Assembly: GCA_030267565.1 (NCBI GenBank)
Contig: BRXU01000019.1
Location: 918,501 to 982,500 of the forward strand
Direction: 5' to 3'
Length of the DNA stretch: 64,000 nt
DNA from: Pleodorina starrii
Taxonomy: Eukaryota; Chlorophyta; Chlorophyceae; Chlamydomonadales; Volvocaceae
Notes under the pieces: generated by a model
What the model was told of the DNA's origin: nothing
Seen by the model: the letters and a program-made list of their open reading frames with translations, nothing else
Database searches by the model: none
Position numbers and translations under genes: made by a program
Shown: positions 483 through 51,739 of the stretch, in pieces
How positions within the stretch are numbered: position 1 is the first letter of the stretch
Layout of the letters: each line of letters opens with the position of its first letter

Positions 483-494
483 CATGCAGTTACA
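483..494. repeat. Target-site duplication, 3' side of the element
   Basis: CATGCAGTTACA, identical to 11791-11802 and immediately next to the (AAT)n block that is the element's 3' tail on the minus strand. Confidence 0.9.
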
Positions 495-617
495 AAATAA
501 TAATAATAATAATAATACGCCCGACAGAGCCGAGGCGTGGGTTATGGGAGCAGGAGGGGTGGGGTGTCGGGTTGCCCCGATCCCAGGCCTCTCCCGCTAC
601 CGCGGTGAGATTGGGAG

Positions 618-634
618 CCCGCCGTTGCGGCGGG
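618..634 (-). promoter_or_regulatory. GC-rich hairpin directly after the polyprotein stop
   Basis: Perfect 7-bp stem (CCCGCCG/CGGCGGG) with a 3-nt loop, starting at the base after the TAA stop codon, at the start of the 3' UTR. LINE reverse transcriptases often recognise 3' structures. That role here is inference. Confidence 0.5.
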
Positions 635-3600
635 TTAGGGCGGGTCGGCGCTGGTTGTGCTCTGTTGGCGGGGGTCCCGCTCCAGTTGCCTCCTGGCCGC
701 GACAATTGCGTTCAACGCTCGGACAGCGTGGTCGTGGAGGTCGTTGCAGCATTTTTTGGCCGCTTCGTTGCTCGTTCCCAGTGAGGTCAGCAGTTGTCGC
801 AGGTCTTTGCGGATGGTGCCGGCGAAGCCCAGGCTAATTGCTTCCTGTTTCGTGTAACATACTTTCCATCCGTGCGCCGTCAGCATCTGAGCTAGTTCCG
901 CGTGTTGATGGGCCTTGTCGTTTTGTTTCTGTGTGTGATTTGTGTCGGCTGTGTAGCCTACTTCGATTATGTGTACAGTGTGCTCGCTGGGGTCATCTGG
1001 TCCCATGTATTTCGGTGAGCATGTGTCGCTGAGGGGTATGCTGGGGATAAGCAGCAGGTCAGGGCGCTTTTTGGACCGATCGTCGTCGGGGATGTTGGGT
1101 AGCAGCCACTTGGGCAGGCGTGTGCCGGCCACGTAGTCCGGCTTGTCCTCCATGCTGCATGCGTCCATGACGATAAAGCAGCCTCCATGGGCCCCTCTGG
1201 ACAGTGTTCTAGTGATGGTTTGTACCGCTTGGTTGTGTCGCAGGGTATAGAGAGCGTGCATTCGCGCGTGTTGGCAGCCTCCCAGGATGTGTGCTCCTGA
1301 GTCAGGGATGCGTGTCTTTGTTTGGGGGTCTTTGCACACAGGGCAGTAGCCTGTGGACGTTGGGCCGCCCGGTACAAGGGGCATTCGAAAGAGCTTTGCG
1401 AGTTTGGCATTCCAGAGCTGTCCGTACAGGTAGTCGAGGCACCGTTTGTAATGCCGGTGCCGGCCCGTGCCCCGCTGCAGGGTTCTGGTGCTGGCATTGA
1501 TCTCTAGGTCCGGTAAGGCATCCTCTACGTATTTGACGTATGCGGTCTCGTTGGTGTACCCATTGTGTGTCGTCTGGCTGACCAGAGTGTCGATGCCGCG
1601 GTTAAGGTCGTTGGCGTAGCGACCGGCGTTTACGTCGGTCCCCTCGGACTTCCGTAGCCACCAGTGTTTACTTCTTGGATTATTGTCTGCTTTCTCTATT
1701 ACGGCTTCTGCCGGCAGCATTCCCTGCGCCGCAAGGATAGCAGCCTGTACGGCGGCTTTGTCCGCTTCTTCATTATATCGAACTCCTGTGTGTGCTTTGA
1801 CTTTCAATAGCGACGTTTTAAGCTTGGCGACGGCCCGGGCTTTAAGTGCGGCAACGATGTCCTCGAGCAGTGCTCTATGTTTACTCAGCCGCAATTTTTG
1901 CGGGTTGTTTATCATCTTCTGGATCAATTGGAGCGATGCTTTGGAGTCCGTCCAAATGCTGAGGTGGGCTTGGTTGTGAGGTAGGCCGCGTCGCATGGTG
2001 AGTGCCTGATGTATCGCGCTTAGTTCACAGCGCGTAATTGTTTGACATCCGTAGGCTCCTGGGTTGACATCTATGAGGAGCGTATGTCCAGTCAGTGCGT
2101 CGACTGCTGCGGCGCCGAGTCCTAACATCTTGGTGTTCCCGACCTCGACTTCCCTAACCGACCCATCAGTATAGATGGAGGCGTGGGCGTTGTACCGAAG
2201 CGGGTTTGCTGCATGGAACGCCAGGTGCGCGGAGCGTCGTTCAGCGGGTGTGGGGTTGCTGCACTTACGAGAGGACACCGCCTGGTCAGGCGCTCCGGCA
2301 GTCATTTTGCGGACGCGTTTCCGTACCCACTGGGGGGCTATCCACGGCTGGGCTTGACCTGTAGGCGCTGGCAGGGTGGTGCGCATACCTAGCGCCTGCC
2401 GGAGGCTGCTCACGTGTGATTTGCCCGCGTCGTTACTGACCAGTAGCAGGGTCAGGCCAACCGGGTAAGGCTTGGTGTCCACGTTGAGCGTGGCGCTTTG
2501 CAGTATCCCCTTGGCGGCGAGCGAGTCGATGCTACCCACTTGCGTGACCAGGGGGTGCGATAGGTACCGGGTATACGGCGCTGTACGGGACGTGGGGACT
2601 ACGATAAGGGTGGCGGTCTGCGTAGCCTCGGTCTTTTTGGCTTCCGCCCAGCCCAACGCCCACCGCAAGGCATGGTGGCCCTCCTCGGGTGTGGGTTCCG
2701 GGTGTGCGATGGACAAGCCGGTAAACGGTTGGGAGTATGCGTCATGGTTGGCCCCAAAGAGCATGTCTTCTGGGAAGCGTGAGAAGTACGTTTCAGTGCA
2801 GTTAGCCACATTTAAAGGGGACGCAAAGCGTTCTGTGCTTGAACCCATGGCATTCATGAGACGTGTTGTAAACTGTTCTCCGAGTCCTTGCTCGTGTGCC
2901 GCCTTAACGGGGTGTGTTTTGGTGCCCCCTCCATCACGGTAGCGCAGGAGGAGGCGTGCCACGTCTTCCTCGAAGCCACCCGCCGCTGCAAGCTTGGCGT
3001 GCGCCTCCGGCCTCTTACATTTGGCGTCGGAGTGCCTTAGCCACAGGCTGCGCAGCAAGCTGTCCAGGAGCGTGCCGATGCATCGTCCCTGGGGGTCGTA
3101 AACAAGCGCGACTCCCTGCTCTAGGAGGCCTGCAGGAGTATCTCCGCTGCCGTCCCAAGGTGCGCGGTTAGAGGGGTCGGGGTCGCTGTGTTTGCCAATC
3201 TGGATGGTGTACCGCCCTGTCGGGCGGATGTCCCTATCCGGGTTGCCGGGATGTACATCGATTTCTACGTGTTGGCGTAGGAGCCGTTGTCCTCTGGCCT
3301 GGTTGAGGCATTCAGAGGCCCATTGGCCTTGCTGCTGCCTCGGATTAAGGTGCTGGTCTCGGGCTGGCGCAGTGCGCCCGGGGGCCGTCTCGGCTGCCGC
3401 CTCTAGGCGGTGTCGGAATGCATTGAGCAGCTCGTTCCAGTTGTCTTGGGTGGCCAGGCGCGTGCCTTCGTCCTCGGTTCGCGCCCAGTCTACTTCGATC
3501 CTTTCGGTGGGGGTTGCCGGATCTGCTGCGGCCTCGTACGGACGTGTTGCCGTGGGTAGGTATCCGTGCGCTGCGTACAGCTCGAGCGCCCCTTTGGTGA

Positions 3601-6600
3601 TAACTGTGCTTTCCCACTCAACTTGGTAGAAGGTGCTGTGTGTGGGGTGCCGGGGTGTATCTCTGCGTTGCCGCTTTGCGGCTCGGGGGCCTGCTTCCAC
3701 CCGCTTGCGGATCTGCGCGTGGATAAGGGCTACCCTCTCTTGCTCGCCGAATAGATATTGGTTGATGTTGTGGCCGTATTTAAGGGCAACCCCTGTGGGC
3801 CATTCTCGCTCTCCCCGCAGCATTTCTTCAAGCTGCGATGCGGTCCCCACTTCGGCTGCTAGTCCTGGGAGGTCGCGGTGACGCAGCAGGGCTTCACAGT
3901 GCGTGACGGTGAGTGGGCTTTCTCTGGGGTCCCATCCGGAGGCAGTTGTGTCCGTGATGTGGCGGGTGGGTTTTGGGCGCTGCCTCCTGATGTATGCCGT
4001 CATGGTTTCTTCGGTAGCGTTGCGTCGGGGCATGTGGCGCCGAGCTTCCCTTTGTTGCGCTGGGCGCCTCACCTGGCCCTCCTGGGATTCGACTTCCCGT
4101 CTCGGGGCCGCCGGATCTGGGCTGAGGTTGTGCGCGGCGGGCGAAGGGTCTGGCGGTGGGGCCCCGGTCGTGTCCCGGGGGCGTGACACCACATATCGCA
4201 TGATATTTCCATGAGGAAGCGGCGTGGGTCCGTGTGTGTCATTCATGAGGTCCGTCATAATGGGTTCATTGGGGATGGCCCGCAGCTCCGGGGGCAGCGC
4301 AGTCACCCCTCGGTGCCTCGCCGCGCGGGCGCGTACACTGAGAACGGGGTTCAGTGCTAGGCTGAGTTGGTTCAGGGCGATGAGGTGTCGGGGCCCGACA
4401 CTCCGTCCACCGATGCGTCGGAGCTGGTCCGTGGTAATGAAGTGTGCTCCTGTGTTCTTATCTTTCAGGACTCGGAGATCCAGGCCCAGCTCAAGCAGAG
4501 GCTGTACGCATCTGGAGAGGAGCGCGAGGGTTTTGGGCTCCGTCCCCGAGTTGCACGCCGCTAGAAGGTGAATGAGAGTGCTTGCTTTCCGTTCGTACCC
4601 TTTGCCACAGTCCGTGAGCTCAATGCCCGCCTCCTGCGTGATGGTCAGCTGCTTTAGCGTCGTGTAGAAGCGGCTTTCCTTCTTGAGGGCGTGCACCGGC
4701 ATGTCGCCCATGTATCGGCTTTGCAGGCTAAGGAGAGCCCTAGTGACTACCCCAAGCCGGCCTTCGTCATTCAGGGAGAGGACGAGAGCTTTGGCCGCCT
4801 TGGCGACATAGAGGCTGCGTATGGTGCCGACCCCCAGGCCGAGTTGCTTTACTGGGCCGAGGATTGCGCGGGTGGGAAACCCCATTTTAAGGCCATAGCT
4901 GCGCTTAGCTATGCCAGCAATTTGGGAGTCGAAGCTGGCGATGTCTTGGGGGGTGTACGCCATAGTGGCCAGGCTGTACGCGACGAATGGGTGGATCAGG
5001 GTTTTGATCATGTTGATGCGCTGGTCGGGAGACGCCATGGACTCCTGGATGCCCTGTCCTCGCCGCGTGATCTCAGCGCGGACATAGGCTACTTGAGGTG
5101 CCCAGTCGAGGGTAGGGGTTACATGGACTCCCAGGTATTTGTACGAGGCGGTCGGGGGCGCGTAGGGTATCGGTGATCCGTCTATACGGATTTGGTCTTT
5201 TAGCAGTCGCTCAAGGGCAGTCTGATATTTGCGGGTGCCGGGTCCCCGGCTCAGGTCCTGGTCCGACCGTGCGCGGCCGTGCAGGATGCCTTGCAGCTGA
5301 CATTTGCCAACGTTGACCTTCAGGGCTCCCCATTGCGCGTACTGCTCGATTTTCGCACATTGGAGACGCATGTCTGAAACGCTGTTTGTGAGTGTAACCA
5401 AGTCGTCTGCGAACGCTCCCGAGCTGAAATGGTGCCGCTCATTTTCCTCGGCCTTGAGGCATCCGTACTGGTATCCCCGTCCTCCGCTGTGCAGCCACCT
5501 GAGTAGGGGTTCCATATAGATGATGAACAGCACCGGGGACAGCGTGTCACCCTGAATTGTACCGCGTTCGATGGCTATGTCCGCTGTGCAGCCGTGCTCT
5601 GTCCGGATGCGCGTGGTGGCCCGTGAATATAAGTTGGCTACCACCTCGATCAGGTCGTCCGGGTAGCCCAGGTCGTACATGATCATGAGCAGCTTGTCGT
5701 GATCGATCGTGTTGAACGCAGACGTGAAGTCGATGTATAGAAGGAAGAGGTCACGGCTGGTGAGGCCCGCGTCCTCGATTGCGTGTAGCACGTTTTGGAG
5801 TTGGCGCTCGGTGTTGCGTTGCCTCAGGTAGCCCTCCTGAGCTTCCGTAAAGATGTGCGCTTGCTCACTGTAGAGTACGATATTCAGCGTAATGTGGCTG
5901 GTGTACAGCTTGTAAATTGTGTTCGCCAGGGCGATGGGCCTTTTGTTCTTAATGAGGAGCGGGTCGCCCTTCTTGGGGATAAGGACCGTGTCGGATTTCG
6001 TCCAGTGTGTGGGGATTTCGGCCTTCACCCACATGACCGTAATGAGCTGGTGGATGGCGGTCTGGAGGTCGGCGGGTAGTGTTTGTAGAAGTTCGTTGGG
6101 TATCCCGTCGGGGCCTGGGGCCTTGTTTCTCGCGAGGTGGTCGATAGACGTGCGGAAGTTGTGTGGATCTAGTACACCCGGGAGGAGCGATGGGGGGGCG
6201 TCTCCCCACTTGGCCAGCCCTTCCCTAAGCGGGTCTTGCGCGCCCGGTCTGGTCCAGGGATAGTTCCGGGGGGCTTCGTTTGGGAGGTACTTTCCCGTTC
6301 GTGGGCCAGAGACGGGTCTCGCAAGAAGGGCGAAGTGCGTGTGAAGCGCATCGAGTATGTTTTTGGAATCAGTACACAGTCGTCCATCGGTTGGGTGTCG
6401 GATGGCCGCGATTCCGCGGGGCTGGTCATCAGGTTCAAGGACCTGTCTGTGCGCCTGCCGGGGCTTTTTGGTTAGTAGCCGCTGGAAGCTTTTCTTTGCC
6501 TTGCGTGCGTTAGTTGCGCGAATCTCTCGAGCAAGCTTGGCTATTTCCCCTCCGGTCTCTTTAATGGCCGCACGCAGGGTGCGGGCTGCGTCTGGTTCTT

Positions 6601-9600
6601 CGCGCTCAGTGGCGGCATGCTGAGTGGCGGCGCTGCGCTCGGGTGTTGCCCGTTCCGTTGTGCCGCTGGTGCCTGGGGGCGCCGTGGCCGGATTGGGGGG
6701 CGTCGTGCCATTGGCTTGACCCTCCGTTAGTGTAGGTGCCCCTTGCTCCTGGGGGTCCGTGCGCAGGGCTTTTGCGAGATTATCTTTCATGGTTTTGTGG
6801 TCGTTGTGCAGCCTGGCGAGGCGCCTGCCGATGCCACGTCGCGCATGCAGCTTCCCCGTGCAGGGGGGTTTCTGTTGACAGTGAGATTCCAGTATCCCAA
6901 GGCAGCGGTCGAGCAGGTCGCCTAGTTCATGGCTGAGAGTAGTGACGTCCGTCGCCCGGACGGTATCGTGGTTGCGCAGGTTAGCCAGGAGTGCTCGTGC
7001 CTCTTCCTTACCGGCGGCACGTTCCAGCTGTTCGGCGACGTGTCCGATGGCTTCGTACGCCGGGTTTAAAGCGCTTAGCAGGTGGGCGATTTCAGAAGTG
7101 AGCGTCGCTTCCATCTCCATGTGCGCCCGGATTTTACTCTCTTTAAGTATTGGGAGTTGTATGCGGCTCCACGAGCTGGCTGCGTGGTCAGCCGCGGCCT
7201 GAGCCGCGGGCGCTGGAAGGAGACGAATACCCGCCAGCGGGATGAACGTGCAGAGGGGTTTATGGTCGAAGTTTCCTCCGCATTCGTACACTTGTTCGTA
7301 CACTGTGCCCTCCTTGTCTGCTGCCGCTCCGGTGTGGGCGGCTAGCAGGACGTCGTCTATCCGGCTGTGGTGAGTGTCGTGGTCAAGCTGTGTCTGCGTG
7401 TAGGTGTAGGCACGCCGCGGAGTAACGACGGGGTTTAGGTTCGCACTGCTCGAGAAGCTACGATGCGCCCTGTCAGCCGGGTAGCATGTGCCCGTGGACC
7501 GGTCGCTAGGATGGAGCGTTGCGTTCCAGTCGCCCGCCATGATGAGGTGCTCCCCCTTGGCGCTGGCCTGTGTGGCGGCGGTTTGTCCGTACTCGTATAT
7601 CGCTTGCCTGATCAAGGGATCCGCCGGGCAGTAGACCCCCAGCACGTGTAGGGGGATGCTGCCTGGGGTTTTGATGCGAACGTGTCCGATGTAGCCCTCA
7701 AGGCCCGGAGAGACGGGCTCGGCACTCGTGCTGCCTTGGCCGCTAAAGCGTTCCGCTACCCCAACAATGACACCCGCTTCACGCGTCTTGTTGTGCTCCG
7801 GGTGGGGACGGTTGCTCATGTATGTCTGGTATGGCCGGAGGGCCTGTTTAACGCTGACAATGCCTCGTCGGTTGTGCGCACTAAGTTTGGTCTCGGTCAG
7901 GACTATGACGTCTGGCTTATGTTCGTCTAGCATGTGTGCTACTCCCTCGCGGTGGCCCTGAAGGCCCCGTGTGTTCATCGTGAAGACTTTGAGGTGCCCG
8001 GACTGCGGGGCGCCCGGTGTTGGGGGGCTTGGGTCTGCTGCGGCCGGCGGCGGCTGCTTATCGGGTGAAGTGTGCGCTATTGCCCTCGGTGTCTTGGGCT
8101 GCATGTATCGCGCGATGCCTTGTTGCCGCTTTTTGGGCTGATGGGCGGGTTGGGGCCTGCCGGCGGGGGGTGATTCTGCGGCGCGTTCGCGGGCTGACTG
8201 GTCCCTGGCGGGTTGTGTTTGGGGCGCGCTGGGCGTGGCGTCCCGGCAAGCCGGGTCCAGGGGCTGGGCCCCTGCACTTTGGTTAACGTCTGTGGCTTCC
8301 CTGCCGGTTTCCCTTTGCCGGATGGGTAGGCCTTGGTTGCGTAGCAGGTGGTATAGGATAGTGTGCGTATGAGGTGCTGGTCCGATCTTCCTACGTTTCC
8401 TCGCAGCTGTCGCCGTGCGGGGAGCTGCGTCGTGCTGTATCACCGTTGTGGCGCGCTCCACCGCATGGTTGAGTCGGCGTGCCGTCGGGCCGTGGTGAAC
8501 ACGCGGGGCGGCATGTCGCACTTCGGGGTGCGCGCCGGTCTCGCGCCGTGCCGCTTCTGCGTTGGTGGCGCGGTGCTCTGGTGCGCCTTCTGCTGCCTCT
8601 GCGGGGACCTGGATTTCCAGTGGCTGGGTTGGCCAGATGGGGTTCGGTGCTGGAGGCCCGTCCGGGTCGCGCCCATCGGGGTCCAATGCCATGTGCATGG
8701 GTTCAGTCGCTGGGTGCTTCGTCACTCGCCCTTCACGGTCATCAGTGTCCATGGGCTCCTGGTTCGGCGGTGACTGGTCAGTGGGTGCATCTTGCTGGGT
8801 GCCGTCCACTGGGGGGGTTCCGGTGTGTGTTTCCGGGGGCGGCTGTGTCGGTTGCTGGGTCCCGCCTGGGGGCAGGGCCCAGTCCTCCGGGAGTTTGACC
8901 TCCTTCAGGTCTGTATGGGTAGCGATCCCTTCGCGGTTCGGGCGGAGGTGGAGGCAGTAGACCGCCCCCTCCCCCCGAGGCCAGAGCGGCTCTTCGGGGC
9001 TGATCAGTTGTGTGCTGTCGTACAGGGAGTCGATAATGTACCAGCACTCGCCTTGCTTCTTGACTGCTACGGCGTGTCCGTTGAGGTGGACAATAAAGCC
9101 CCAGTTTCGGGCGTGTGCCGGCAAGAGTGACACAACCGTGTTTATGTTCATGTTTCGTGTCAGGGTAACGGTTTGCCCCGCGTGTTGGCAGCTCGCACTG
9201 GCGATGTGGGCGTCTCCGATGGGTATGCCACCGGGGTCTTGCAGCCGTACGCTGTGGCGGAGGTAGTGATTCACCACTATTGTGGAAAACAGACCTTCGT
9301 CGGGGAGGTGTGCCGCATTCCAGATGGCAAGCGCCCCGGTGAGCCTCCAAGTCGCCATGTGTGCTTGCATTGCTCGGCAGTAGCTGAGAATGTGCTCGGG
9401 GTCGATATACGGCCCCCCAAGCAGGTTGTTTATGGAGTGTATCATACATAGCTGTCTCTGCTGTTTCTCGTGGTACAGGGGCGCGCCCGGCGCAGCGGGA
9501 CCGGGGGGTGGCCAAGTGATGTCTGCGGGTGGGCTTGGTGCGTGGCCCCCTCCGCGATTCCCCCCGAGCCTTGTTCTCTTGGCGGGTCTATCGGGTCGGC

Positions 9601-11743
9601 CGGCGCAGGGCGCGTATTCGGGGTGAGCGCAGCGCGAGCTGTGCTCAGGTGGGTTGCCGGGGTTTTTTGGTATTTGGTATTTTGGCGCAGGTTGATTGCT
9701 GGTGCACCCGCGGTTGCAGGTGTGTGAGTGGGGGTGGTTCCAGATGGCCAGGGCGAGAAGTGTTAGTACTCTGGTGAACGGGTCGAGCGTTGCGTTGAGG
9801 TGGGCCGTGGTGAGTCCTACTGCGGCGCAGGCGGTGAGTAGGTGCCGCGTGTGGCGCGCCGCGAGTGGCACCGCTTGGAGCCCAGGGGTAACGATGGGGA
9901 TTCCCAGGGTTAGGATTGGCACGTGTGCGTCGGCTGTAGCAAGTAGCCAGCACAGCGACGCTAGGGCCAGGAGAGACGTTGCTGCCCGCGCGTATAGGCC
10001 TGGGGAGTTCTGTACCGTTCGGACTGCTGAGCGGGTGACAAGTGCAGCATGCAAGATTGCCTTCACAGATGTTATTCCTGCCGGTATAACTATGAGAACT
10101 GTGACAACGTATGCCAGTCCATATAGTGTCAGGGCCCCTAGCACGAGCCAGATCGCCTCAGTCAGTGGGGGGAGTGAGACTGCAAGCGCTCCAGGGATCA
10201 GAGTGTACGGAAGGAGGAGGATGCAGTACCAGCCCTGTCGCCATTCGGACAGCGTTCGAATTGCGCTCCCTTTGACGGTGAATGTCCGTTTCACTACGTT
10301 GCATGTTCGACGGGCAAGGTTGCCGCCCCACGCGTAGGCCAGGTAGGCGCAGCCTAGCGCGCAGCCGACAGCGATGGTGTCGACAGTCGCATAGGATACG
10401 TCTGCCGCAAGGTGGAGGGTCAGGTCCGCCACCGATAGGGCTATCTTCGCGGTCAGCAGCCCGGTGTTGCAGGCTAGCCACACGATGGTGGCCATGATAT
10501 ATGCTGTGCCCGTCGAGAGGTTTTGCAATATTCGTAATGCACCCTGCCAGGTGGTGCACGGCTTGGGGAAAGATATAAAGCGGGGAGTGGCCGTGCCGCT
10601 GGTAGTGCTTCGGTGCTGTACGTCAACGTCAGGTCGTTCGTGTTCCGGTATTCTTTGGATTGCTTCCTTACTATTCACCGGTTGCTTGATGGGTCTTCTA
10701 AGTTGCCCCCATGTTCCTCTTTTTGACCTGTTGTGGCCTTTGTGGGCTACCAAGTCGGTCGCCCGCCCATTACTTAGGTCTCCGACGTTCCTGCCTTCGT
10801 AGCTTTGACATGTTCCCATAACCATGCTTGTGCTGCATCTTGTTATTATCAAGCTGCGATTGCCTGTCTGGTGGTCGCACTCGGGAACTGCCCCTCTGTA
10901 GGAGTGATATGTTTCAGGCGCCCTTTCGTAAGTTGCGTTATACTGCCTTATAGATAACGGATAAATGTCTGCTACCGGACAAGGCACATTTCTGCCGTTA
11001 AGCGTGCTCGCGGTGCTGCCGATACTTCCGATGGGCTGGAGACCCTGGCTGAGCTCGTCGCCATTCCGGTTACATAATATTGTCCAAATATCATTATAAC
11101 CGGCTATTGCGACGGGTATGGTATCCTGGCTGGAGGCCTGGGAAATGGTGACCTGGCTGGAGTCCACCCTCAGGCCCTTGGCCGAACCTTTCCGAACCAC
11201 CTCTAAACCATTAAAGTAAGTCTTAACGACCTCATACATGGTCGCAGTCGAGAGTGGGGTCTGGGCTCCCCCGATTTGAGTAATCGGCAGCGTCAGCTGG
11301 GCGTTTGTCGCCGCTGCTGAAATCCAAATAGCGCCTACATTTTTGGAGTGTTCTGAGTGGCAGTTTGTTTGATTGTAAGAGCGGTCTGTGAGACTGGGAC
11401 GGGTCCCCGCGATAGCTGTCCATGGCCTTCGGGGAGAGTTTGTCTCCCGAAGAATTGGTGTTCCGTTGGCTCCCATAATGCACCAGCGGCAGTCCTCACG
11501 GTCCTTAAATGCCAGTCCGTCCCGCCCCTCCGATCCCTGGCTACAGTCAAAAGACCTTCGCCAGGTGGGGCGGGGGGATGCAGGAAGCCGAGGGACTGCA
11601 GAGTCGCTGGGCGGGCATGCCAGAGTCGGCCTGCAGAATACAAGGCTTATCAGCACGAGAATAACGTGCTTGCGCCATACCTTTCGCCGACTTCGTGCGC
11701 CATCCATGGTCTTGTCACTGGGTTGGGATATCTCCCTATTCAT
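635..11743 (-). CDS. Dualen-like retrotransposon polyprotein, 3,702 aa
   Basis: A single polyprotein read from the first ATG after the 47-nt leader. Approximate domain map by residue: signal-like segment 25-43; ectodomain 44-342; multi-pass membrane region 410-670; Josephin-like protease 756-932; Pro-rich linker with a basic RKRRK patch near 1115; AP endonuclease 1248-1505; reverse transcriptase 1865-2210; unassigned 2230-3180; RNase H 3185-3335; CX2CX14HX4C finger plus restriction-like endonuclease 3465-3635. No retroviral aspartic protease and no gag-type CCHC knuckle were seen. An N-terminus aimed at the secretory pathway and nuclear-acting enzymes in one chain imply proteolytic processing or alternative starts. 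The element family assignment is strong; the role of the N-terminal third is unknown. Confidence 0.95.
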   Translation of the reverse strand: MNREISQPSDKTMDGARSRRKVWRKHVILVLISLVFCRPTLACPPSDSAVPRLPASPRPTWRRSFDCSQGSEGRDGLAFKDREDCRWCIMGANGTPILRETNSPRRPWTAIAGTRPSLTDRSYNQTNCHSEHSKNVGAIWISAAATNAQLTLPITQIGGAQTPLSTATMYEVVKTYFNGLEVVRKGSAKGLRVDSSQVTISQASSQDTIPVAIAGYNDIWTILCNRNGDELSQGLQPIGSIGSTASTLNGRNVPCPVADIYPLSIRQYNATYERAPETYHSYRGAVPECDHQTGNRSLIITRCSTSMVMGTCQSYEGRNVGDLSNGRATDLVAHKGHNRSKRGTWGQLRRPIKQPVNSKEAIQRIPEHERPDVDVQHRSTTSGTATPRFISFPKPCTTWQGALRILQNLSTGTAYIMATIVWLACNTGLLTAKIALSVADLTLHLAADVSYATVDTIAVGCALGCAYLAYAWGGNLARRTCNVVKRTFTVKGSAIRTLSEWRQGWYCILLLPYTLIPGALAVSLPPLTEAIWLVLGALTLYGLAYVVTVLIVIPAGITSVKAILHAALVTRSAVRTVQNSPGLYARAATSLLALASLCWLLATADAHVPILTLGIPIVTPGLQAVPLAARHTRHLLTACAAVGLTTAHLNATLDPFTRVLTLLALAIWNHPHSHTCNRGCTSNQPAPKYQIPKNPGNPPEHSSRCAHPEYAPCAGRPDRPAKRTRLGGNRGGGHAPSPPADITWPPPGPAAPGAPLYHEKQQRQLCMIHSINNLLGGPYIDPEHILSYCRAMQAHMATWRLTGALAIWNAAHLPDEGLFSTIVVNHYLRHSVRLQDPGGIPIGDAHIASASCQHAGQTVTLTRNMNINTVVSLLPAHARNWGFIVHLNGHAVAVKKQGECWYIIDSLYDSTQLISPEEPLWPRGEGAVYCLHLRPNREGIATHTDLKEVKLPEDWALPPGGTQQPTQPPPETHTGTPPVDGTQQDAPTDQSPPNQEPMDTDDREGRVTKHPATEPMHMALDPDGRDPDGPPAPNPIWPTQPLEIQVPAEAAEGAPEHRATNAEAARRETGAHPEVRHAAPRVHHGPTARRLNHAVERATTVIQHDAAPRTATAARKRRKIGPAPHTHTILYHLLRNQGLPIRQRETGREATDVNQSAGAQPLDPACRDATPSAPQTQPARDQSARERAAESPPAGRPQPAHQPKKRQQGIARYMQPKTPRAIAHTSPDKQPPPAAADPSPPTPGAPQSGHLKVFTMNTRGLQGHREGVAHMLDEHKPDVIVLTETKLSAHNRRGIVSVKQALRPYQTYMSNRPHPEHNKTREAGVIVGVAERFSGQGSTSAEPVSPGLEGYIGHVRIKTPGSIPLHVLGVYCPADPLIRQAIYEYGQTAATQASAKGEHLIMAGDWNATLHPSDRSTGTCYPADRAHRSFSSSANLNPVVTPRRAYTYTQTQLDHDTHHSRIDDVLLAAHTGAAADKEGTVYEQVYECGGNFDHKPLCTFIPLAGIRLLPAPAAQAAADHAASSWSRIQLPILKESKIRAHMEMEATLTSEIAHLLSALNPAYEAIGHVAEQLERAAGKEEARALLANLRNHDTVRATDVTTLSHELGDLLDRCLGILESHCQQKPPCTGKLHARRGIGRRLARLHNDHKTMKDNLAKALRTDPQEQGAPTLTEGQANGTTPPNPATAPPGTSGTTERATPERSAATQHAATEREEPDAARTLRAAIKETGGEIAKLAREIRATNARKAKKSFQRLLTKKPRQAHRQVLEPDDQPRGIAAIRHPTDGRLCTDSKNILDALHTHFALLARPVSGPRTGKYLPNEAPRNYPWTRPGAQDPLREGLAKWGDAPPSLLPGVLDPHNFRTSIDHLARNKAPGPDGIPNELLQTLPADLQTAIHQLITVMWVKAEIPTHWTKSDTVLIPKKGDPLLIKNKRPIALANTIYKLYTSHITLNIVLYSEQAHIFTEAQEGYLRQRNTERQLQNVLHAIEDAGLTSRDLFLLYIDFTSAFNTIDHDKLLMIMYDLGYPDDLIEVVANLYSRATTRIRTEHGCTADIAIERGTIQGDTLSPVLFIIYMEPLLRWLHSGGRGYQYGCLKAEENERHHFSSGAFADDLVTLTNSVSDMRLQCAKIEQYAQWGALKVNVGKCQLQGILHGRARSDQDLSRGPGTRKYQTALERLLKDQIRIDGSPIPYAPPTASYKYLGVHVTPTLDWAPQVAYVRAEITRRGQGIQESMASPDQRINMIKTLIHPFVAYSLATMAYTPQDIASFDSQIAGIAKRSYGLKMGFPTRAILGPVKQLGLGVGTIRSLYVAKAAKALVLSLNDEGRLGVVTRALLSLQSRYMGDMPVHALKKESRFYTTLKQLTITQEAGIELTDCGKGYERKASTLIHLLAACNSGTEPKTLALLSRCVQPLLELGLDLRVLKDKNTGAHFITTDQLRRIGGRSVGPRHLIALNQLSLALNPVLSVRARAARHRGVTALPPELRAIPNEPIMTDLMNDTHGPTPLPHGNIMRYVVSRPRDTTGAPPPDPSPAAHNLSPDPAAPRREVESQEGQVRRPAQQREARRHMPRRNATEETMTAYIRRQRPKPTRHITDTTASGWDPRESPLTVTHCEALLRHRDLPGLAAEVGTASQLEEMLRGEREWPTGVALKYGHNINQYLFGEQERVALIHAQIRKRVEAGPRAAKRQRRDTPRHPTHSTFYQVEWESTVITKGALELYAAHGYLPTATRPYEAAADPATPTERIEVDWARTEDEGTRLATQDNWNELLNAFRHRLEAAAETAPGRTAPARDQHLNPRQQQGQWASECLNQARGQRLLRQHVEIDVHPGNPDRDIRPTGRYTIQIGKHSDPDPSNRAPWDGSGDTPAGLLEQGVALVYDPQGRCIGTLLDSLLRSLWLRHSDAKCKRPEAHAKLAAAGGFEEDVARLLLRYRDGGGTKTHPVKAAHEQGLGEQFTTRLMNAMGSSTERFASPLNVANCTETYFSRFPEDMLFGANHDAYSQPFTGLSIAHPEPTPEEGHHALRWALGWAEAKKTEATQTATLIVVPTSRTAPYTRYLSHPLVTQVGSIDSLAAKGILQSATLNVDTKPYPVGLTLLLVSNDAGKSHVSSLRQALGMRTTLPAPTGQAQPWIAPQWVRKRVRKMTAGAPDQAVSSRKCSNPTPAERRSAHLAFHAANPLRYNAHASIYTDGSVREVEVGNTKMLGLGAAAVDALTGHTLLIDVNPGAYGCQTITRCELSAIHQALTMRRGLPHNQAHLSIWTDSKASLQLIQKMINNPQKLRLSKHRALLEDIVAALKARAVAKLKTSLLKVKAHTGVRYNEEADKAAVQAAILAAQGMLPAEAVIEKADNNPRSKHWWLRKSEGTDVNAGRYANDLNRGIDTLVSQTTHNGYTNETAYVKYVEDALPDLEINASTRTLQRGTGRHRHYKRCLDYLYGQLWNAKLAKLFRMPLVPGGPTSTGYCPVCKDPQTKTRIPDSGAHILGGCQHARMHALYTLRHNQAVQTITRTLSRGAHGGCFIVMDACSMEDKPDYVAGTRLPKWLLPNIPDDDRSKKRPDLLLIPSIPLSDTCSPKYMGPDDPSEHTVHIIEVGYTADTNHTQKQNDKAHQHAELAQMLTAHGWKVCYTKQEAISLGFAGTIRKDLRQLLTSLGTSNEAAKKCCNDLHDHAVRALNAIVAARRQLERDPRQQSTTSADPP
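839..1351 (-). other. Zinc finger and restriction-like endonuclease (RLE)
   Basis: CPVC followed by H3485 and C3490 forms a CX2CX14HX4C finger. Downstream come RHN (3502-3504), KKRPD (Asp3562) and HIIEVGY (Glu3594), the PD-(D/E)xK-type layout seen at the C-terminus of R2-like elements. With the APE domain this gives the element two target-nicking nucleases, the hallmark of Dualen. Confidence 0.85.
1739..2191 (-). other. RNase H domain
   Basis: IYTDGS (Asp3193), RCELSA (Glu3240), IWTDSKAS (Asp3266), KAHTG (His3318) and NEEAD (Asp3328) give the full D-E-D-H-D set of a type I RNase H. In some LINE clades this domain removes the RNA strand of the cDNA hybrid. Here it lies about 950 residues after the reverse transcriptase. 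Confidence 0.9.
5114..6151 (-). other. Reverse transcriptase domain
   Basis: The order is NKAPGPDG (fingers, near 1873), YIDFTSAFNTIDH (motif A, Asp2005), QGDTLSP (motif B, about 2064), FADD (motif C, 2111-2114, catalytic Asp pair) and YKYLG (about 2201). This is a typical non-LTR reverse transcriptase with an intact active site. Confidence 0.95.
7229..8002 (-). other. AP-type endonuclease domain (APE)
   Basis: Motifs of LINE apurinic/apyrimidinic endonucleases occur in order: MNTRG (Asn1257), LTET (Glu1284), AGDWN (Asp1405, Asn1407), SRIDD (Asp1463) and a terminal DH pair (1493-1494). All expected catalytic positions are present. In LINEs this enzyme nicks the target DNA to prime reverse transcription. 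Confidence 0.92.
8948..9478 (-). other. Josephin-like cysteine protease/deubiquitinase domain
   Basis: Residues 757-777 read YHEKQ...LCMIHSINNLLGG, matching the Josephin signature: catalytic Cys766 with the oxyanion-type Gln761 five residues before it, followed by HxxNNLLGG. A later GHAVAV block supplies His890. WYIID supplies Asp905 exactly 15 residues further on, the same spacing as the His-Asn pair of ataxin-3. All four catalytic positions are therefore present, with Asp replacing Asn. Josephin enzymes cleave ubiquitin chains. In the element the domain could remove ubiquitin from the ribonucleoprotein or cut the polyprotein; both roles are inference. Confidence 0.82.
9734..10516 (-). other. 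Multi-pass membrane region of the retroelement polyprotein
   Basis: Residues about 410-670 hold six to eight hydrophobic stretches, for example around 412-430, 452-470, 503-522, 528-556, 587-603, 608-625 and 655-668, separated by short basic loops. A sequon lies at 408. The second element copy (22,660-23,340) has an equivalent region with the same spacing of hydrophobic blocks but little sequence identity. That indicates a constrained membrane property and argues against accidental hydrophobic coding. Confidence 0.65.
10718..11671 (-). other. Signal-like segment and envelope-like ectodomain of the retroelement polyprotein
   Basis: Residues 25-43 are a basic-then-hydrophobic stretch ending LAC, resembling a signal peptide or signal anchor. 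Residues 44-342 contain ten cysteines (43, 67, 86, 88, 128, 224, 255, 289, 303, 312, counting the one at the signal border) and N-X-S/T sequons at 93, 124, 269, 295 and 338. The segment ends with RSKR at 339-342, a furin/kexin-type dibasic site, just before a glycine. This layout is what a secreted or surface glycoprotein precursor looks like. I recognise no family, and 'envelope-like' describes layout only. Confidence 0.55.
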
Positions 11744-11790
11744 AGTTGTCTCTGGGGGCTAATATCGAATATTGCTTTTTTTTGGCAGTC

Positions 11791-11802
11791 CATGCAGTTA
11801 CA
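11791..11802. repeat. Target-site duplication, 5' side of the element
   Basis: CATGCAGTTACA, identical to 483-494. It abuts the first base of the element's leader. Confidence 0.9.
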
Positions 11803-12047
11803 TGAATGTGTTGTAAAGGGGGGAGATCGAACTAACTGTGTGACAGCAGCAGCAGCCGCAGTCCGCCATTCAGACATCGGTATCAAAGCATGTTTACGGC
11901 GGCCAAGTCTACCTGCATTTCCACACCGCCGACCGGACACGCATGCAACTGACAATTATCTTGCGATCCAGCCAGTCCTACCAGTCCTACCCGGCCAAGA
12001 AAACCTAGGCACGCACGCGTACACGCACGATGATACGCACGCACCCG

Positions 12048-12185
12048 GGAAGATGTCCATCTGCTGAGGCACCCCGAAGGGGCAGTGCTGCCCAAACGAG
12101 TAGCTCTGCCCGCCTCGAGTGCGGATGTCAATCTTGCATATCCGTGAGTTTCGGGACGTATCAAGATAGACTGATGATGGAGATC
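12048..12185 (-). pseudogene. Exon 2 of the duplicated lectin-gene copy, frameshifted
   Basis: Matches 51131-51267 but carries a 4-base insertion (ATAG, plus strand) near the exon start that breaks the frame. It encodes the segment with TSRNSRICKIDIRTRGG and ends at the same CCCGG|GTGCGT donor. Confidence 0.7.
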
Positions 12186-12472
12186 CTGCAAAACAGGGGA
12201 TGGAAGGCGAGGCAGACATTACAATATGAGCTAGAGACCACCGGCGGACACACACACCCCAGCAACTGCCGGCCGTGCTCGTATCATCGCAACGCGCGAC
12301 CCCATCGTCCCTGAGCCGAACGAAGGCACAAGCGAATCGACCCGGGAGAGGACGTGGCTGGAGTCAGCGGCTCGCTCATATAGCTCTTCCAGGTGAATAC
12401 AACCGTCGCTTCTCGGGACGAGAACACTTCGCGTTCGCAAGCCTTAACAGCCCATGATAGCAGCCGCTAAGG

Positions 12473-12864
12473 GTACTCGTCGCATACGGTGGTTTTTACC
12501 GCCATATATTATGAGGGCTGAGGTGGAGGTCAAGAAGACTGAGCAATGTCACCGCTAACCCTAAGCAATGTAACCGGCAAGACGGGTAAATGTGCTCGGC
12601 TTTGATAAGACCATCCATCTATTACGACTCTTTAGACGTGTTTATAGTCGATAGCCTTTAGGCGAGCGCCTTTAACTGAACGCACAGACGATCACTAGAC
12701 GACCGTGTATACATCAACTATAGACGACCCGTCTTATAGACGACCCACAGACTATCGGCGATCGTCTGAGATCGTCTATTTAGGCTCGTCGATCATCGTC
12801 TAAGAGACTAGCCTATAGACGACCCGTGTATTTTTCCAAATAGATCGTTTTTACAGACGTACTC
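12473..12864. other. Extra DNA in intron 1 of the pseudogene, rich in TAGACGA words
   Basis: About 390-500 bases present here but absent from the corresponding intron near 51,370-51,390. Between 12,640 and 12,850 the words TAGACGA, GACGACC and their complements recur in both orientations. GTACTC occurs at both edges (12473-12478 and 12859-12864) and may be a short duplication. A small non-autonomous element is a plausible reading. Confidence 0.4.
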
Positions 12865-13310
12865 ACTGGTTCACGACGTCCGGCTCCAAAGGTCCGCAGT
12901 GCTGCCATCCCTTCGAGATGTCCGCGGGCCGCAGGCGGGAGCTGTCGTTAAGGGTCCAGTCTCGATGGACCAACCACCTGGTAGTACGCCTCAGAAACTG
13001 GATCACGGCGGGTGCCCCATTGAGGAACTTGATCGAACCAGGAACACTCGTAAAAGGCGTGCGTCGCGGACAGCGAGGCTGCCAGAAGTGCGATAGCCAC
13101 AGCCAGCTGCTGTTGCGATTCCTAAGAATGATCTCCCGAAAAATATTAATGTAAGTTGAGTAGCCAACGAGGCCTTCATCTTCCAGTTACTTCCACACAA
13201 TCGACGGCGGCCATATACTCCGAAATAATAATGCACCACCGTTGACACAAAAGCACGCCTTGGGGTGCCCCAGTTGTGACGTTCAACTTTCAAGAGAGGC
13301 AAGGACATTA
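12862..13310 (-). pseudogene. Exon 1 of the duplicated lectin-gene copy, signal peptide lost
   Basis: Counterpart of 51393-51739. Relative to that copy it lacks about 34 bases covering the signal-peptide start (the MSMSN region) and 7 bases further downstream, so the reading frame is broken twice. Flanking DNA up to about 13,900 also aligns with 51,740-52,330, so the duplication included the presumptive promoter. Confidence 0.72.
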
Positions 13311-20750: not shown

Positions 20751-21522
20751 TGGTCCGTTCGGGCAAACGATGGGCGACTTCAATTCAAAAGCATGTCGCC
20801 TTTCACATACGCTTTTATGGGCCCTCGCAGGCACACAGCGCAGTGTGTCCTGCACTGCGCTGGCGTCCTCAAGGCGCATTCCCTTGTATGACTCCGTTTC
20901 GTCTCCCCGTGTCTCGCCGATCCTCGCTTCCGCCCTTGCCATTCTTCCGCCCTTGCCATTCTCTGCATTTTATCATGTTCTCAGCGTGCTTCGAGGCCGC
21001 TGAAGATGCAGCGGTACTGCCCCATTACCGCCCACATGTGTACTGCGGGCCCACATATATATTGAGCCCACAACTCCTCTGGTGCTTAACCCTTCACTTC
21101 ATTGGTCTGAGGACCACGCAATTCCGGGTAAAGCTTGCAAGCGTCTCTATGCGAGTACTTGTAGCGGAGCCTTGCACTCTCGTCGGCATGTGCACAATGC
21201 GAAATGCGAATGGCTGCACGTTGCATGTTCCGGATCTCTGGCAGGACCATGGAAGCACGGTTGGAACGGACACTGCAATTCGGAGTGCCCGGGGGGAAGG
21301 GGGGTGTGGGGGGATGGGGGCCCTACCAAACGAGCCCCGGTTTAAGTCTGGCTAAGGCTGTGGCCTTATTAGCCTAAGTTGGCCTAAGCAGGATTATTGC
21401 GGCATGTGCGGATTAAGCACAACTTATAACCGACTTTGAGTTAGTGTGGTATTAGCCCCCACTTATAGCTGTATAAGTCCGAAATGTTGGGTTAGCAGCA
21501 CTTAGCCCCTGGCCGCCACCTG
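20751..21522. other. No recognisable gene
   Basis: Single-copy-looking sequence between the tandem array and the second retroelement, with no supported feature. Confidence 0.5.
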
Positions 21523-22655
21523 AACACCCGCCCGCACAGGAAACCCCCACCTACCACGAAAGGCAACGAGCGCAATGTGCATGATTCACGCCATTAACAC
21601 CTGCTCGGGCGCCCGTACATCGACCCCCCCCCACGTACTTAACTACTGTCGTACCATGACAAGACACATGCAGCAGCAAGGCCTCCATGCAGCGGCCGCC
21701 ATCTGGAAGCACGCGCACAACCCTAGCACGGGCCTCTTCTCCACCATAGTGCTTAACCACTACCTACGCCACAACGTACGGATCCGCGACGCCAGCGGGA
21801 ATACACTCCACGACACACACATCGCATCACTGAGCAATGAGCTTCCGATAAGCAAAGGGGACCAGCTCGACACCCTCTGGGCACAACTACCCCCCCCCCC
21901 CCTGCCCAAAGCTGGGGTTTCATAGTGCATCTCGAAGGCCATGCCGTCGCCGTCCGAAGGCAACACACGCATTGGTTCAATGTCGACTCGCAATCACCGC
22001 GCCCAATACAGCCGACAACCAATTGGCCCCTCGCTCACGGCACAATCTACTGCCTCCAACACCGGCACAACAGCGCCCCGTGTCAAACACATGTCGACCT
22101 CCGGAATGTCACGCCACCTGAGCAATGGACCGCAGCAGCCCTGACGACCAACACACAGAACGGACCTGACCTACCGACCAGTCGCCACCATCACGGACAC
22201 GACGGAACAACACCAGACCGGCCACGACACACGCACAATACCGGAACCCACCCCCACCGAAGCGCCCCCCTCGCCCTCCCACGAGGTGAGAGCGTTTGCA
22301 GAGCACGAGGCACCCCGGCACACCGCCGCCAGCCCAGACCCCATCCCGATGGAGGTAGATGACGCGGGCTCCCCCGGAAGTAAGTCACACATGCAATCGA
22401 CGGAACCCGGAGGCCCCGAGGGCCACCCGGCACAAACTCCTGCCGACCCCAGCCCCATGGACACTGACGACGCGGAACTCGATGCGGAAACCCCGCAGCC
22501 TCCGCCAGATGCCGCGGGCCGCGGGCCCCCCCTGCGGCCCGTGCAGCAAGACCCCCTAGGCCCCGTAGAGCAACCGCGAATGCTCCTGAAGCGCGCCACG
22601 CCGACACGAGACGGGCCACCAGGCGCGCCTCCACTCCGGAGGCCGCGGCACATGT
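21523..22655 (+). pseudogene. Duplicated, decayed Josephin-plus-linker segment of a Dualen-like element
   Basis: Near-identical to 23,455-24,587, giving a 1.13-kb direct repeat about 1.93 kb apart. The Josephin region is broken: bases are lost around the catalytic Cys and the NNLLGG block, and a C-rich run at about 21,889-21,903 adds a frameshift. The linker still has the acidic MDTDDAE segment. It was probably made by local duplication or by nesting of a related element, then decayed. Confidence 0.75.
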
Positions 22656-24291
22656 ACATACGCATGCACTTACGCACCTTGCCCTTTACTGTGCACGCAC
22701 CGCCGCTCTGATCACCAAACACCTCGCACACAGACTTTTGGCGGCGACACGACTAACCATGCAAGCCAACAGAACGCGACGAATACATGCCGAATGGACT
22801 CGAGTCGCCCATACAATACTACTCATGCCCCTCGCAGTCACCCCAACCGCCCTAACCCTCGCCCTACAACCCCTGTACGACGTCGCCCACTATCTGTTCT
22901 CTGCATTCCTCCTGATCTGGGCGGGACGCCTGATCCTCGTAACACTAATTCTACCCCGAGGTGCCGCCCTGCTCCGCACCGTACGACATGCCGTTCACAC
23001 CATACGCGTCGGCACCCGCCGAGTATGGGACGCAACCGGACCCCTTGCACATCAGCTGGCATTCCTCACCATTCTCACCCTGATCTGCTGGCAACTGATC
23101 ACAGGGGACATCATAGCACCATACCTCGCAGCCGGCATGCTCACCATCTCAAGATGCGTGCAGGCCACGCCACCATTAACACGCCGCGTGCACGGCCACG
23201 TCTGTGCCTGCGTTCTCGCCGGTCTGCTCACACACGTCCCAAGCACGAGCCAAGGCGCGGTTGCGCCTCTCGCAACGGCGCTCGCTCTGCTAGTCTTGGA
23301 CATCCCGGAAGCGACCCGCCTCAGCCGACCACAACATGAGCCCCAGTACGGAGGGCCCGACGAGGGCATGACACGCCGCGCTGCAACACCTGCCCACACA
23401 ACCGGCACAAACAACGCGCCGCGACGCCCCCAGGACGTCCCCTGGCCACCACCGGGACACCCGCCCGAACAGGAAACCCCCACCTACCACGAAAAGCAAC
23501 GAGCGCAGATGTGCATGATTCACGCCATTAACAACCTGCTCGGGGGCCCGTACATTGACCCACCCTACGTACTAAGCTACTGTCGTACCATGACAACACA
23601 CATGCAGCAGCAAGGCCTCCATGCGGCGGCCGCCATCTGGAACCACGCGCACAACCCCAGCACGGGCCACTTCTCCACCATAGTGCTTAACCACTACCTA
23701 CGCCACAACGTACGGATCCACGACGCTAGCGGCAACACACTCCACGACACACACATCGCATCAGTGAGCACCGAGCTTCCGATACGCAAAGGGGACCAGC
23801 TCGACACCCTCTGGGCACAACTCCCCTCTCACGCCCAACACTGGGGTTTCATAGTGCATCTCGAAGGCCATGCCGTCGCAGTCCGAAGGCAACACACGCA
23901 TTGGTTCATCATTGACTCGCAATCGCAGCGCCCGACACAGCTGACAACCCATTGGCCCCTCGCTCACGGCACTATCTACTGCCTCCAACCCCGGCCCAAC
24001 AGCGCCCCGTGTCAAACACATGTCGACCTCCGGAATGTCACGCCACCTGAGCAATGGACCGCAGCAGCCCTGACGACCAACACACAGAACGGACCTGACC
24101 TACCGACCAGTCGCCACCATCACGGACACGACGGAACAACACCAGACCGGCCACGACACACGCACAATACCGGAACCCACCCCCACCGAAGCGCCCCCCT
24201 CGCCCTCCCACGAGGTGAGAGCGTTTGCAGAGCACGAGGCACCCCGGCACACCGCCGCCAGCCCAGACCCCATCCCGATGGAGATAGATGA
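22656..24291 (+). pseudogene. Dualen-like copy 2: membrane region and intact Josephin domain
   Basis: One open frame covers a multi-pass hydrophobic region (blocks near codons 25-45, 50-75, 105-125 and 128-140 of the ORF starting at 22,738) and then a Josephin domain. The latter has YHEKQ...MCMIHAINNLLGG (catalytic Cys codon 23,512-23,514), GHAVAV and WFIID, with the His-to-Asp spacing of 15 preserved. Linker homology then shifts to another frame (24,215-24,922), so the element is broken. Upstream ectodomain sequence is missing. Confidence 0.82.
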
Positions 24292-24922
24292 CGCGGGCTC
24301 CCCCGGAAGTAAGTCACACATGCAATCGACGGAACCCGGAGGCCCCGAGGGCCACCCGGCACAAACTCCTGCCGACCCCAGCCCCATGGACACTGACGAC
24401 GCGGAACTCGATGCGGAAACCCCGCAGCCTCCGCCAGATGCCGCGGGCCGCGGGGCCCCCCTGCGGCCCGTGCAGCAAGACGCCCCTAGGCCCCGTAGAG
24501 CAACCGCGAATGCTCCTGAAGCGCGCCACGCCGACACGAGACGGGTCACCAAGCGCGCCTCCACTCCGGAGGCCACGGCACATGTACGCACCAGCAGGAA
24601 GCGGACCAGAAGGCAAGTAGGGCCCGCGCCAGCAACCCACACCATCACACATCACCTGCTCCGCATGCAAGGCCTCCCCATCCGACCGGGCCGTAACCGC
24701 AAGGCCGCCGACGCACCTGTCGGAGCCGAGACAACTCAGGCACCGCAACACAACCCATCCAACACGGCCCCCGACCCTGTACGAATGGCCGCGCACGGCA
24801 CGACGCGCCCCTCTCCGGAACAAAATGCAACACGCCCACGCCCACGCAAGCGCCCAGCGGAAAGCTCCCCCCCTCGCAGTCCCTCCCGAAACCCAAAGCA
24901 GGACCTCAGCAACAACACATGA
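24215..24922 (+). pseudogene. Dualen-like copy 2: Pro-rich linker
   Basis: Acidic and Pro-rich, then a basic patch (RTSRKRTRRQVGPAP) and ITHHLLRMQGLPIR. These match the linker of the intact element (RKRRKIGPAP, then LYHLLRNQGLPIR). It is out of frame with both the Josephin part before it and the endonuclease part after it. Confidence 0.75.
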
Positions 24923-25830
24923 CGAAGTACGCCCACCCAAAAAAGCCAAGGACGGACGCCCCCGCCGCACCTGCCAAAGCGCCAGAGCAGACCGCCAGCG
25001 AGCTGCCCCCGGCCGCACCAGGAGCACCGCCGATAGGCTATCTCAAACTTGTTACGATGAACACGCGGAGCCTGCTAGGGCACCGTAAGAGAATTATGCG
25101 CTTAGTCGATGACCACAAGCCAGATGTGCTGGTGCTAACCGAAACCAGGCTAAGCGCCCACCATCGGCGTGCTATTGCTAGCATAAAGCAGAGCATGAAG
25201 CCCTACCAGACCTACCTGAGCAACCGCCCGCATGTCGCTGACCGCGCCAATCGGGAAGCAGGCGTCCTGATCGGAGTGGCGGAGCGCTTCAGTAGACAGG
25301 GCAGCGCCACCGCAGAACCTATACCCACTGAACTGGAAGGGTACATAGGGCATGTGCGCATAGCCCCCCCGGCCAGCTCCGCCCTCCACATCATAGGGTT
25401 GTACTGCCCATCCGACTCCACCACACGGCAGAGGATATACGACTATGGGCCAGCGACGGGCGAACACCTGGTCATGGCGGGCGACTGGAACGCCGTGCTC
25501 AAAGCGAGTGACCGGTCGACAGGCATCTGCAACACGGACGACAGGGCACACCGATGCTTCTCGACGGACAACGACCTGCAACCAGTCAGCACCATGCAAC
25601 GAGAATACACCTACACACAGACACAACTCGGACTCGACACCCACCTGAGCCGCATCGACGACGTCCTCCTTGCCCCCCAAACCACCGCCGCTGTGGCCAA
25701 GGAGGGCAATGCGTACGAACAAGTGTACGAGTGTGGAGGCAACATCGACCACCGACCGCTGTGTACCTTCCTACCCCTAACGGGACTCCGCCTCTTCCCT
25801 GGCCCCGCGGCCCAGCCCCCCACTACATGA
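24919..25830 (+). pseudogene. Dualen-like copy 2: AP endonuclease, domain intact
   Basis: An open frame of 303 codons with MNTRS, LTETR, AGDWN, SRIDD and DHRPLC: every catalytic motif of the LINE AP endonuclease is kept. It aligns with residues 1248-1505 of the intact element with many conservative changes, so the two copies belong to different subfamilies. Confidence 0.85.

Positions 25831-30675: not shown

Positions 30676-51739
<21,064 letters not shown>

Follow-up and report, generated by a model that had tools for sequence, protein, structure and literature searches.

Introduction

Long interspersed nuclear elements (LINEs) are usually taught as parasites that act as cytosolic and nuclear ribonucleoproteins (RNPs) without a membrane phase, and we know of no mechanism for their movement between cells. 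The Dualen/RandI elements of green algae were reportedly described by Kojima and Fujiwara in 2005 as carrying an apurinic/apyrimidinic-type endonuclease (APE) together with a restriction-like endonuclease (RLE)-like end, a reverse transcriptase (RT), an RNase H and a cysteine protease. The presence of APE and RLE in one element is the Dualen plan (PMC4640811), and an (ATT)n tail is listed for the short interspersed elements (SINEs) linked to DualenCr3 (PMC3747384). Here, we analyzed a 64,000-nucleotide (nt) stretch of Pleodorina starrii DNA, called the window as a whole, in which an ATG-started minus-strand open reading frame (ORF, 635..11743) of 3702 amino acids (aa) belongs to an element that resembles Dualen/RandI in its APE, RT, RNase H and cysteine protease as well as in a putative RLE-like end, and whose 3′ end is an (ATT)n tail like that of the DualenCr3-linked SINEs (PMC3747384). 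Ahead of these enzymes, the protein starts with a predicted signal peptide, a Cys-rich segment and a multi-pass hydrophobic block, and this N-terminal unit may bring replicase synthesis to a cellular membrane.

In the accessible parts of the open-licence literature, we found neither a report of a signal peptide, Cys-rich part or membrane module on Dualen nor a LINE with a comparable membrane-targeting module. A precedent for LINEs that make use of membranes is the esterase ORF1 product of the CR1/L2/RTEX-type elements, which is thought to be active in membrane-dependent transport and is, like the unit proposed here, an upstream product with a membrane role (PMC5408684); however, it is an enzyme without transmembrane segments, signal peptide or ectodomain. 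In APE-type LINEs a 2A skip separates the products, and in sea-urchin NLR proteins an N-terminal 2A doubles as a signal sequence (PMC4981915). 2A-like motifs occur in 6 of 63 Dualen relatives, whereas the window element contains no NPGP (2A) and has a plain signal peptide before a long ectodomain. Env-bearing long-terminal-repeat (LTR) elements, such as gypsy and bdelloid TelKA, are alike in signal, Cys-rich ectodomain, RxxR site and membrane part, and their Env ORFs lie downstream of pol, some with clear viral homology (PMC5408684). The window unit, in contrast, lies upstream, is multi-pass and lacks such homology. Finally, the polyproteins of positive-strand RNA viruses hold a glycoprotein-like part, a membrane part, a cysteine protease and a polymerase in one frame, and the order in the window element is alike; no sequence relation to these viruses was found within IMG/VR, the scope of that search.

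The N-terminal unit belongs to a young Dualen-type element

Judged by its sequence, the element is a Dualen-type LINE: an APE-type endonuclease (PF03372) lies upstream of an RT (PF00078), accompanied by an RNase H (PF00075) and a cysteine protease (PF02099); the element is non-LTR, with a 12-nt target-site duplication and an empty site; and the proteins closest to it in a search with residues 730-2260 belong to algal-type elements that share these domains. Because the duplication CATGCAGTTACA is found at 483-494 and from 11791 onward, the element extends over ~495-11790 and its ATG (11743) lies 47 nt from the 5′ end, as a preliminary description of this DNA had placed it, and the insertion point is further supported by an element-free paralogous sequence at ~50826-51282 of the same window.

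The same description had held that the unit is not a chance upstream fusion, and this is borne out by 10 other near-full-length copies of subfamily F1A, in which the match to the window sets in 9-34 nt before that ATG (at query positions 24-49, the ATG being at query 58; nine of the ten were viewed base by base, L009 lacks an anchor, and L008 and L010 have common flanks). The N-terminal 735 codons are open in all 11 F1A copies, four of which have frames of at least 3707 aa, and the signal peptide and membrane block are present in all eleven, which are near-identical. Since the copies match from just before the ATG and their frames are open, the F1A family is young, with the 5′ ends of its full-length members immediately ahead of the signal peptide. 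Transcripts starting downstream of the unit had been named as a possible refutation; as far as the DNA shows, the 5′ limits of the copies lie 9-47 nt ahead of the ATG.

All features that had been counted earlier (a signal-like segment, ten Cys, five N-glycosylation sequons, an RSKR site and a multi-pass block in the LINE frame) are present as counted, the interval 10718-11671 corresponding to residues 25-342. A check by signal-peptide prediction, which had also been suggested, was made with the von Heijne weight matrix and gave a score of 10.65 that none of 2000 shuffles matched, or 2 of 2000 if translation starts at M13, the second in-frame ATG; residues 13-42 comprise a basic n-region, then a hydrophobic core and then TLA^C. 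Among mock starts, taken as the 2757 methionines past residue 1000 in 64 proteins, 241 (8.7%) score at least 3.5 and eight at least 7. Cys makes up 3.3% of residues 43-342 (positions 43, 67, 85, 88, 128, 224, 255, 289, 303 and 312) vs 1.3% from the Josephin-like protease onward, where ten Cys are reached in one of 54 windows of 300 aa. The sequons (93, 124, 269, 295 and 338) and RSKR (339-342) were dropped as evidence, because shuffles of residues 43-342 give as much: of 5000, 784 contain at least five sequons and 912 contain R-x-[K/R]-R. Signal peptide, Cys content and hydrophobic block therefore exceed chance, whereas the glycosylation and cleavage motifs do not. In the block, hydropathy peaks at residues 506, 535 and 600 are over threshold, with weaker segments before and after as seen by eye.

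The same plan recurs with unrelated sequences

A homologous N-terminus in other Dualen copies, on which the case had been made to depend, is present in the ten F1A copies, and independent families of the same genome have the same plan in different sequences. In F1B, a subfamily of eight loci whose C50 copy has an open frame of 3700 aa, the first ~128 residues are unalignable with F1A and ~45 extra residues carry sequons; its start, MVSQRKVRCKSAFYCVLLSLTLCRLTIA^F, is a predicted signal peptide (score 9.95, reached by 4 of 2000 shuffles). A Josephin search of the genome gave 150 scored matches (164 candidates), in identity classes F1 (~89-100%), F2 (~52-58%), F4 (38-42%) and F3 (34-36%), with fragments between. 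F2b starts with the predicted signal peptide MLCLLMLTVFLLGAEA^C (11.37) in all eight copies read and F3 with MEISSFCCFVLLLLTHTRAHA^N (9.82) in all four read, and the ectodomains of both lack similarity to that of F1 in an alignment set of 12 sequences. Nine further F3 copies match from ~70 nt before the signal-peptide ATG, and three of the four read have a common leader of ~105 nt, with an in-frame stop 18 codons upstream; in one F3 copy the sequence begins only at residue 37, and L083, which is among the four read, meets a stop 172 codons in. Signal peptides are thus predicted in four of the eight N-terminal types of this genome, their scores being reached by 0-8 of 2000 shuffles.

F1A, F1B, F2b and F3 follow one plan: a signal peptide near the 5′ end, a Cys-rich variable part, a multi-pass block, and then a Josephin-like protease followed by the replicase. 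Because some relatives start in the same way with unrelated sequences, it is suggested that Dualen elements work at a cell membrane. In the set of 12 sequences, the membrane block of F1 aligns with that of F2b (E 3.6e-22) and with P0002 (E 3.4e-13). F2a, F2b and F2c have this block in common but not their N-terminal parts, which are unalignable, and therefore the front part appears to be exchanged as a module.

Some N-termini are of other kinds. F2a (L059, L051) begins with a hydrophilic part whose acidic LVDLMVLSDDEED stretch resembles, by eye, a SUMO-interacting motif. In the F1-like copy L055 (C37:794200-796900), a minisatellite of about a dozen tandem Cys-rich repeats, ~76 codons each, stands in frame before the membrane block in place of the ectodomain; its coding is uncertain, because the opposite strand is open too. 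The F1-like copies L056 and L057 (L055-L057 are on C37, C32 and C30) are decayed. Beyond F1 copies and fragments, a genome search with the ectodomain gave a single match, 44 aa long, at C2:246178 (E 0.0018); a host-gene origin was rejected, as the DNA at this place also matches F1 over 71 bases.

Relatives in other organisms

With residues 730-2260 as query, 63 relatives were found, their gene starts being predicted ones. Hydrophobic segments (19-residue mean of at least 1.8) were counted in the 51 of 64 proteins, P0001 included, whose N part is at least 160 aa long (in 13 it is shorter); 51 segments (1.30 per 1000 aa) precede Josephin/APE and three (0.024) follow, a density ~50 times higher before, and at least two segments occur in 12 of 51 N parts vs none of 51 remainders. 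A signal-peptide score of at least 7 is reached by five of 53 ATG-starting relatives (P0004, P0013, P0025, P0041 and P0052), ~0.15 being expected from the mock rate; the predicted cut site of P0041, at residue 60, is late for a signal peptide.

The 2A-like motif, D/G-V/I-E-x-NPGP, precedes the replicase in P0004, P0009 (twice), P0016, P0038, P0039 and P0045, three of the six being from Haematococcus lacustris with the same motif. It stands directly before Josephin in P0038, and P0039 combines it with a leading hydrophobic signal (score 3.9). As separate observations, the two motifs of P0009 flank a shortened Josephin-like stretch, and P0039 (H. lacustris) has a ~1000-aa N-terminal part of sequon-rich repeats, with 21 sequons in 1057 aa (0 of 1000 shuffles).

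Proposed role of the N-terminal unit

We propose, giving it an even chance, that the unit is a modular and swappable secretory/membrane front end that would place replicase synthesis at the endoplasmic reticulum (ER) or nuclear envelope, with the protease or a 2A freeing the replicase. First, the signal peptide would draw translation to the rough ER, where it would be cut and the Cys-rich part would enter the lumen. The membrane block would then anchor the product in the ER, a membrane continuous with that of the nuclear envelope. The Josephin-like protease, or a 2A skip in other Dualen relatives, would separate the unit from a cytosolic replicase (APE, RT and RNase H), which could thereby assemble with the element RNA at a membrane beside the nucleus. 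The ectodomain would be swapped or rewritten fast, as expected if it faces variable host partners. If this is true, one LINE lineage uses a membrane as the building site of its replicase, in the manner of many RNA viruses, and the proposal would offer a testable account of how a large LINE polyprotein is processed, by a Josephin-like protease or 2A, and a possible route for LINE movement between cells. A further-reaching version, which we hold to be rather unlikely, is a LINE lineage with a true surface or secretory phase, having a hypervariable, swapped glycoprotein-like module, a replicase released by protease or 2A, a virus-like organisation and possible passage between cells or species.

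Several results weigh against the proposed front end. At the first ATG, F2a (two copies), F2c and F2d have signal-peptide scores of at most 2.3; the F4 start, MALCVNAASLTQLRQ, judged by reading and not by score, shows no signal peptide, and no hydrophobic peak over threshold occurs in the 1028 aa of F4 read. Not every Dualen lineage, therefore, requires the unit. Of the 53 ATG-starting relatives, only 14 score at least 3.5, where the mock rate predicts ~4.6, and AlphaFold2 in single-sequence mode gave no usable model of residues 13-422 (pLDDT 32.9). Additionally, constraint on the ectodomain is weak or undetected. The ratio of nonsynonymous to synonymous substitution rates (dN/dS; NG86, one-sided tests against neutrality) between F1A and F1B is 0.47 for ectodomain residues 144-342, 0.65 for the stem, 0.82 for the membrane block, 0.52 for the linker, 0.19 for APE, 0.15 for APE-RT and 0.03 for RT; p is below 2e-4 for APE and RT and, depending on the transition weight, 0.035-0.11 for the ectodomain, and stem and block do not differ significantly from neutrality. 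Among the A copies, no constraint on the ectodomain was detected, with dN/dS close to 1 (in L008, two synonymous and nine nonsynonymous changes), and the block is near neutral in close pairs, both A/B and F2b vs the second window copy (p 0.51). In divergent pairs the block is constrained (F2b/F2a 0.44, p 0.0002; F1A/L074 0.55, p 0.003), not clearly so for F1A/L073 (p 0.09). The dN/dS below 1 that had been expected across copies is hence equivocal for the ectodomain and holds for the block in divergent pairs.

Such ratios would suit an explanation that we regard as unlikely, namely that the unit is a dispensable passenger, a captured or randomly extended frame that is tolerated since the downstream enzymes are unharmed. 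It would fit the dN/dS near 1 among A copies and not clearly below 1 for A vs B, and the replacement or loss of the ectodomain in F2a, F2c, F2d and F4 and its replacement by a minisatellite in L055. However, strong predicted signal peptides recur at the 5′ ends of F1A, F1B, F2b and F3 without sequence similarity, the membrane block is conserved across families, and the 735 N-terminal codons are open in every F1A copy, though the copies are young.

Homology searches and further alternatives

The unit might also be released on its own, as a secreted or membrane protein aimed at the host (for example at ER quality control or silencing signals, or against competing elements) instead of serving the assembly of the element itself. 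The 2A-like motifs that part the N part from the replicase in some relatives would favor this reading, as would the fast change of the ectodomains, but the window element is without 2A and neither Pfam nor PDB sequences yielded an effector-like homologue, and we consider it improbable.

The element had first been likened to one starting as a viral envelope precursor. The likeness stands for the signal peptide, the Cys-rich segment and the multi-pass block; viral descent is not supported, as the searches below gave no homologue, RSKR and sequons are within chance, the anchor is multi-pass instead of a single stalk, and after RSKR comes GTWGQLRRPIKQ in place of a hydrophobic, fusion-peptide-like stretch. 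Residues 1-720 found no homologue at E≤0.1 among 2311 candidates scored from ~5.8 billion proteins, and a search of the same proteins with five aligned N-part sequences likewise gave none, at E≤0.01, in 8000 candidates scored; both searches need shared 5-residue words and the former also limits length, and distant relatives can be missed, since P0002, homologous in the membrane block, was not returned with residues 1-720. Two pattern matches among IMG/VR viral contigs were not confirmed, Pfam gave no ectodomain homologue, and the best PHROGs match (E 0.017) is a family of unknown function. The best match among PDB sequences, a lipocalin (E 0.047), was not taken as real, and a Pfam match to DUF5313 (residues 466-526, E 0.0042) was disregarded, as it fell short of the cut-off of that family.

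An envelope-like surface glycoprotein that passes particles or RNPs between cells, through vesicles or cell contact, as Env does for gypsy and errantiviruses, is accordingly quite improbable in our estimate. The signal peptide, the Cys-rich ectodomain with its sequons and RSKR, the membrane part behind them, the sequons exceeding composition in F1B (7 of 1000 shuffles) and in P0039, and the fast ectodomain turnover all agree with it, but the protein, IMG/VR, PDB, Pfam and PHROGs searches gave no homologue, the F1A sequons and R-x-[K/R]-R are within chance, R-x-[K/R]-R is absent in six of the other eight ectodomains counted, the anchor is multi-pass, and Pfam shows no capsid-like domain in the element protein. 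A transit peptide to an organelle instead of an ER signal, algal ones being likewise basic and short, is very improbable for this hydrophobic N-terminus in view of its compact hydrophobic core, the (-3,-1) site scores of 9.8-11.4 in four unrelated N-termini, and the Cys-rich part and multi-pass block that come next.

Features of the element and its surroundings

Table 1. Coordinates of the Dualen-type element and associated features in the window.
Feature	Position	Strand	Basis
Whole Dualen-type LINE, subfamily F1A	495..11790	-	Target-site duplication at both ends, paralogous empty site, 10 further near-full-length N-terminal copies
Target-site duplication, 3′ side of element	483..494	.	12 nt CATGCAGTTACA
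Target-site duplication, 5′ side of element	11791..11802	.	12 nt CATGCAGTTACA
47-nt leader	11744..11790	-	Homology starts 9-34 nt before ATG in other copies
Predicted signal peptide, residues 1-42, cut TLA^CPP	11618..11743	-	von Heijne score 10.65, 0/2000 shuffles
Cys-rich, predicted lumenal/extracellular part, residues 43-342, RSKR end (10718-10729)	10718..11617	-	10 Cys, 5 sequons
Hydrophilic stem, residues 343-410	10514..10717	-	A/B dN/dS 0.65, not different from neutral
Multi-pass hydrophobic block, residues 411-690	9674..10513	-	Peaks at residues 506, 535, 600; homologous to F2b, F2a, P0002
Josephin-like cysteine protease, residues 761-916	8996..9463	-	Pfam PF02099, E 4e-8, over its cut-off
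APE-type endonuclease, residues 1255-1438	7430..7981	-	PF03372, E 9.5e-9
Reverse transcriptase, residues 1922-2207	5123..5980	-	PF00078, E 1.4e-23; A/B dN/dS 0.03
PCIF1_WW-like part, residues 2923-3001	2741..2977	-	PF12237, E 3.2e-7, 30.5 bits, just under cut-off 31.1
RNase H, residues 3188-3335	1739..2182	-	PF00075, E 1.2e-13
C-terminal part, putative restriction-like endonuclease	824..1426	-	Cys/His cluster and RPD...E motif, by eye
Paralogous sequence without element (empty site)	~50826..51282	+	79% identity to joined flanks across insertion point

The Josephin-like part aligns to ataxin-3 around the LC.xH.xNNLL motif, which holds the catalytic Cys, and a later His, and the C-terminal RLE-like part (824..1426) matches no Pfam family. 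In the PCIF1-like part, the window element has AHPE at what we take to be the place of the catalytic NPPF of PCIF1, and the relatives P0003-P0055 have NPEY, NPPP, AHP and similar; this part is perhaps a methyltransferase turned to another use.

The host is Chlamydomonas-like, its Rubisco small subunit being identical in 74 of 75 residues to PDB 1uw9_C, an entry from C. reinhardtii. The sequence into which the element is inserted (75-481 and 12013-13107) has a paralogous copy at 50542-51641 of the same window. A second, more divergent Dualen-type element, related to F2 and sharing the membrane block and the Josephin part, lies at 21500-27800 on the plus strand, and its Josephin region is a tandem duplicate with a spacing of ~1.93 kb (21625-22193 and 23559-24122).

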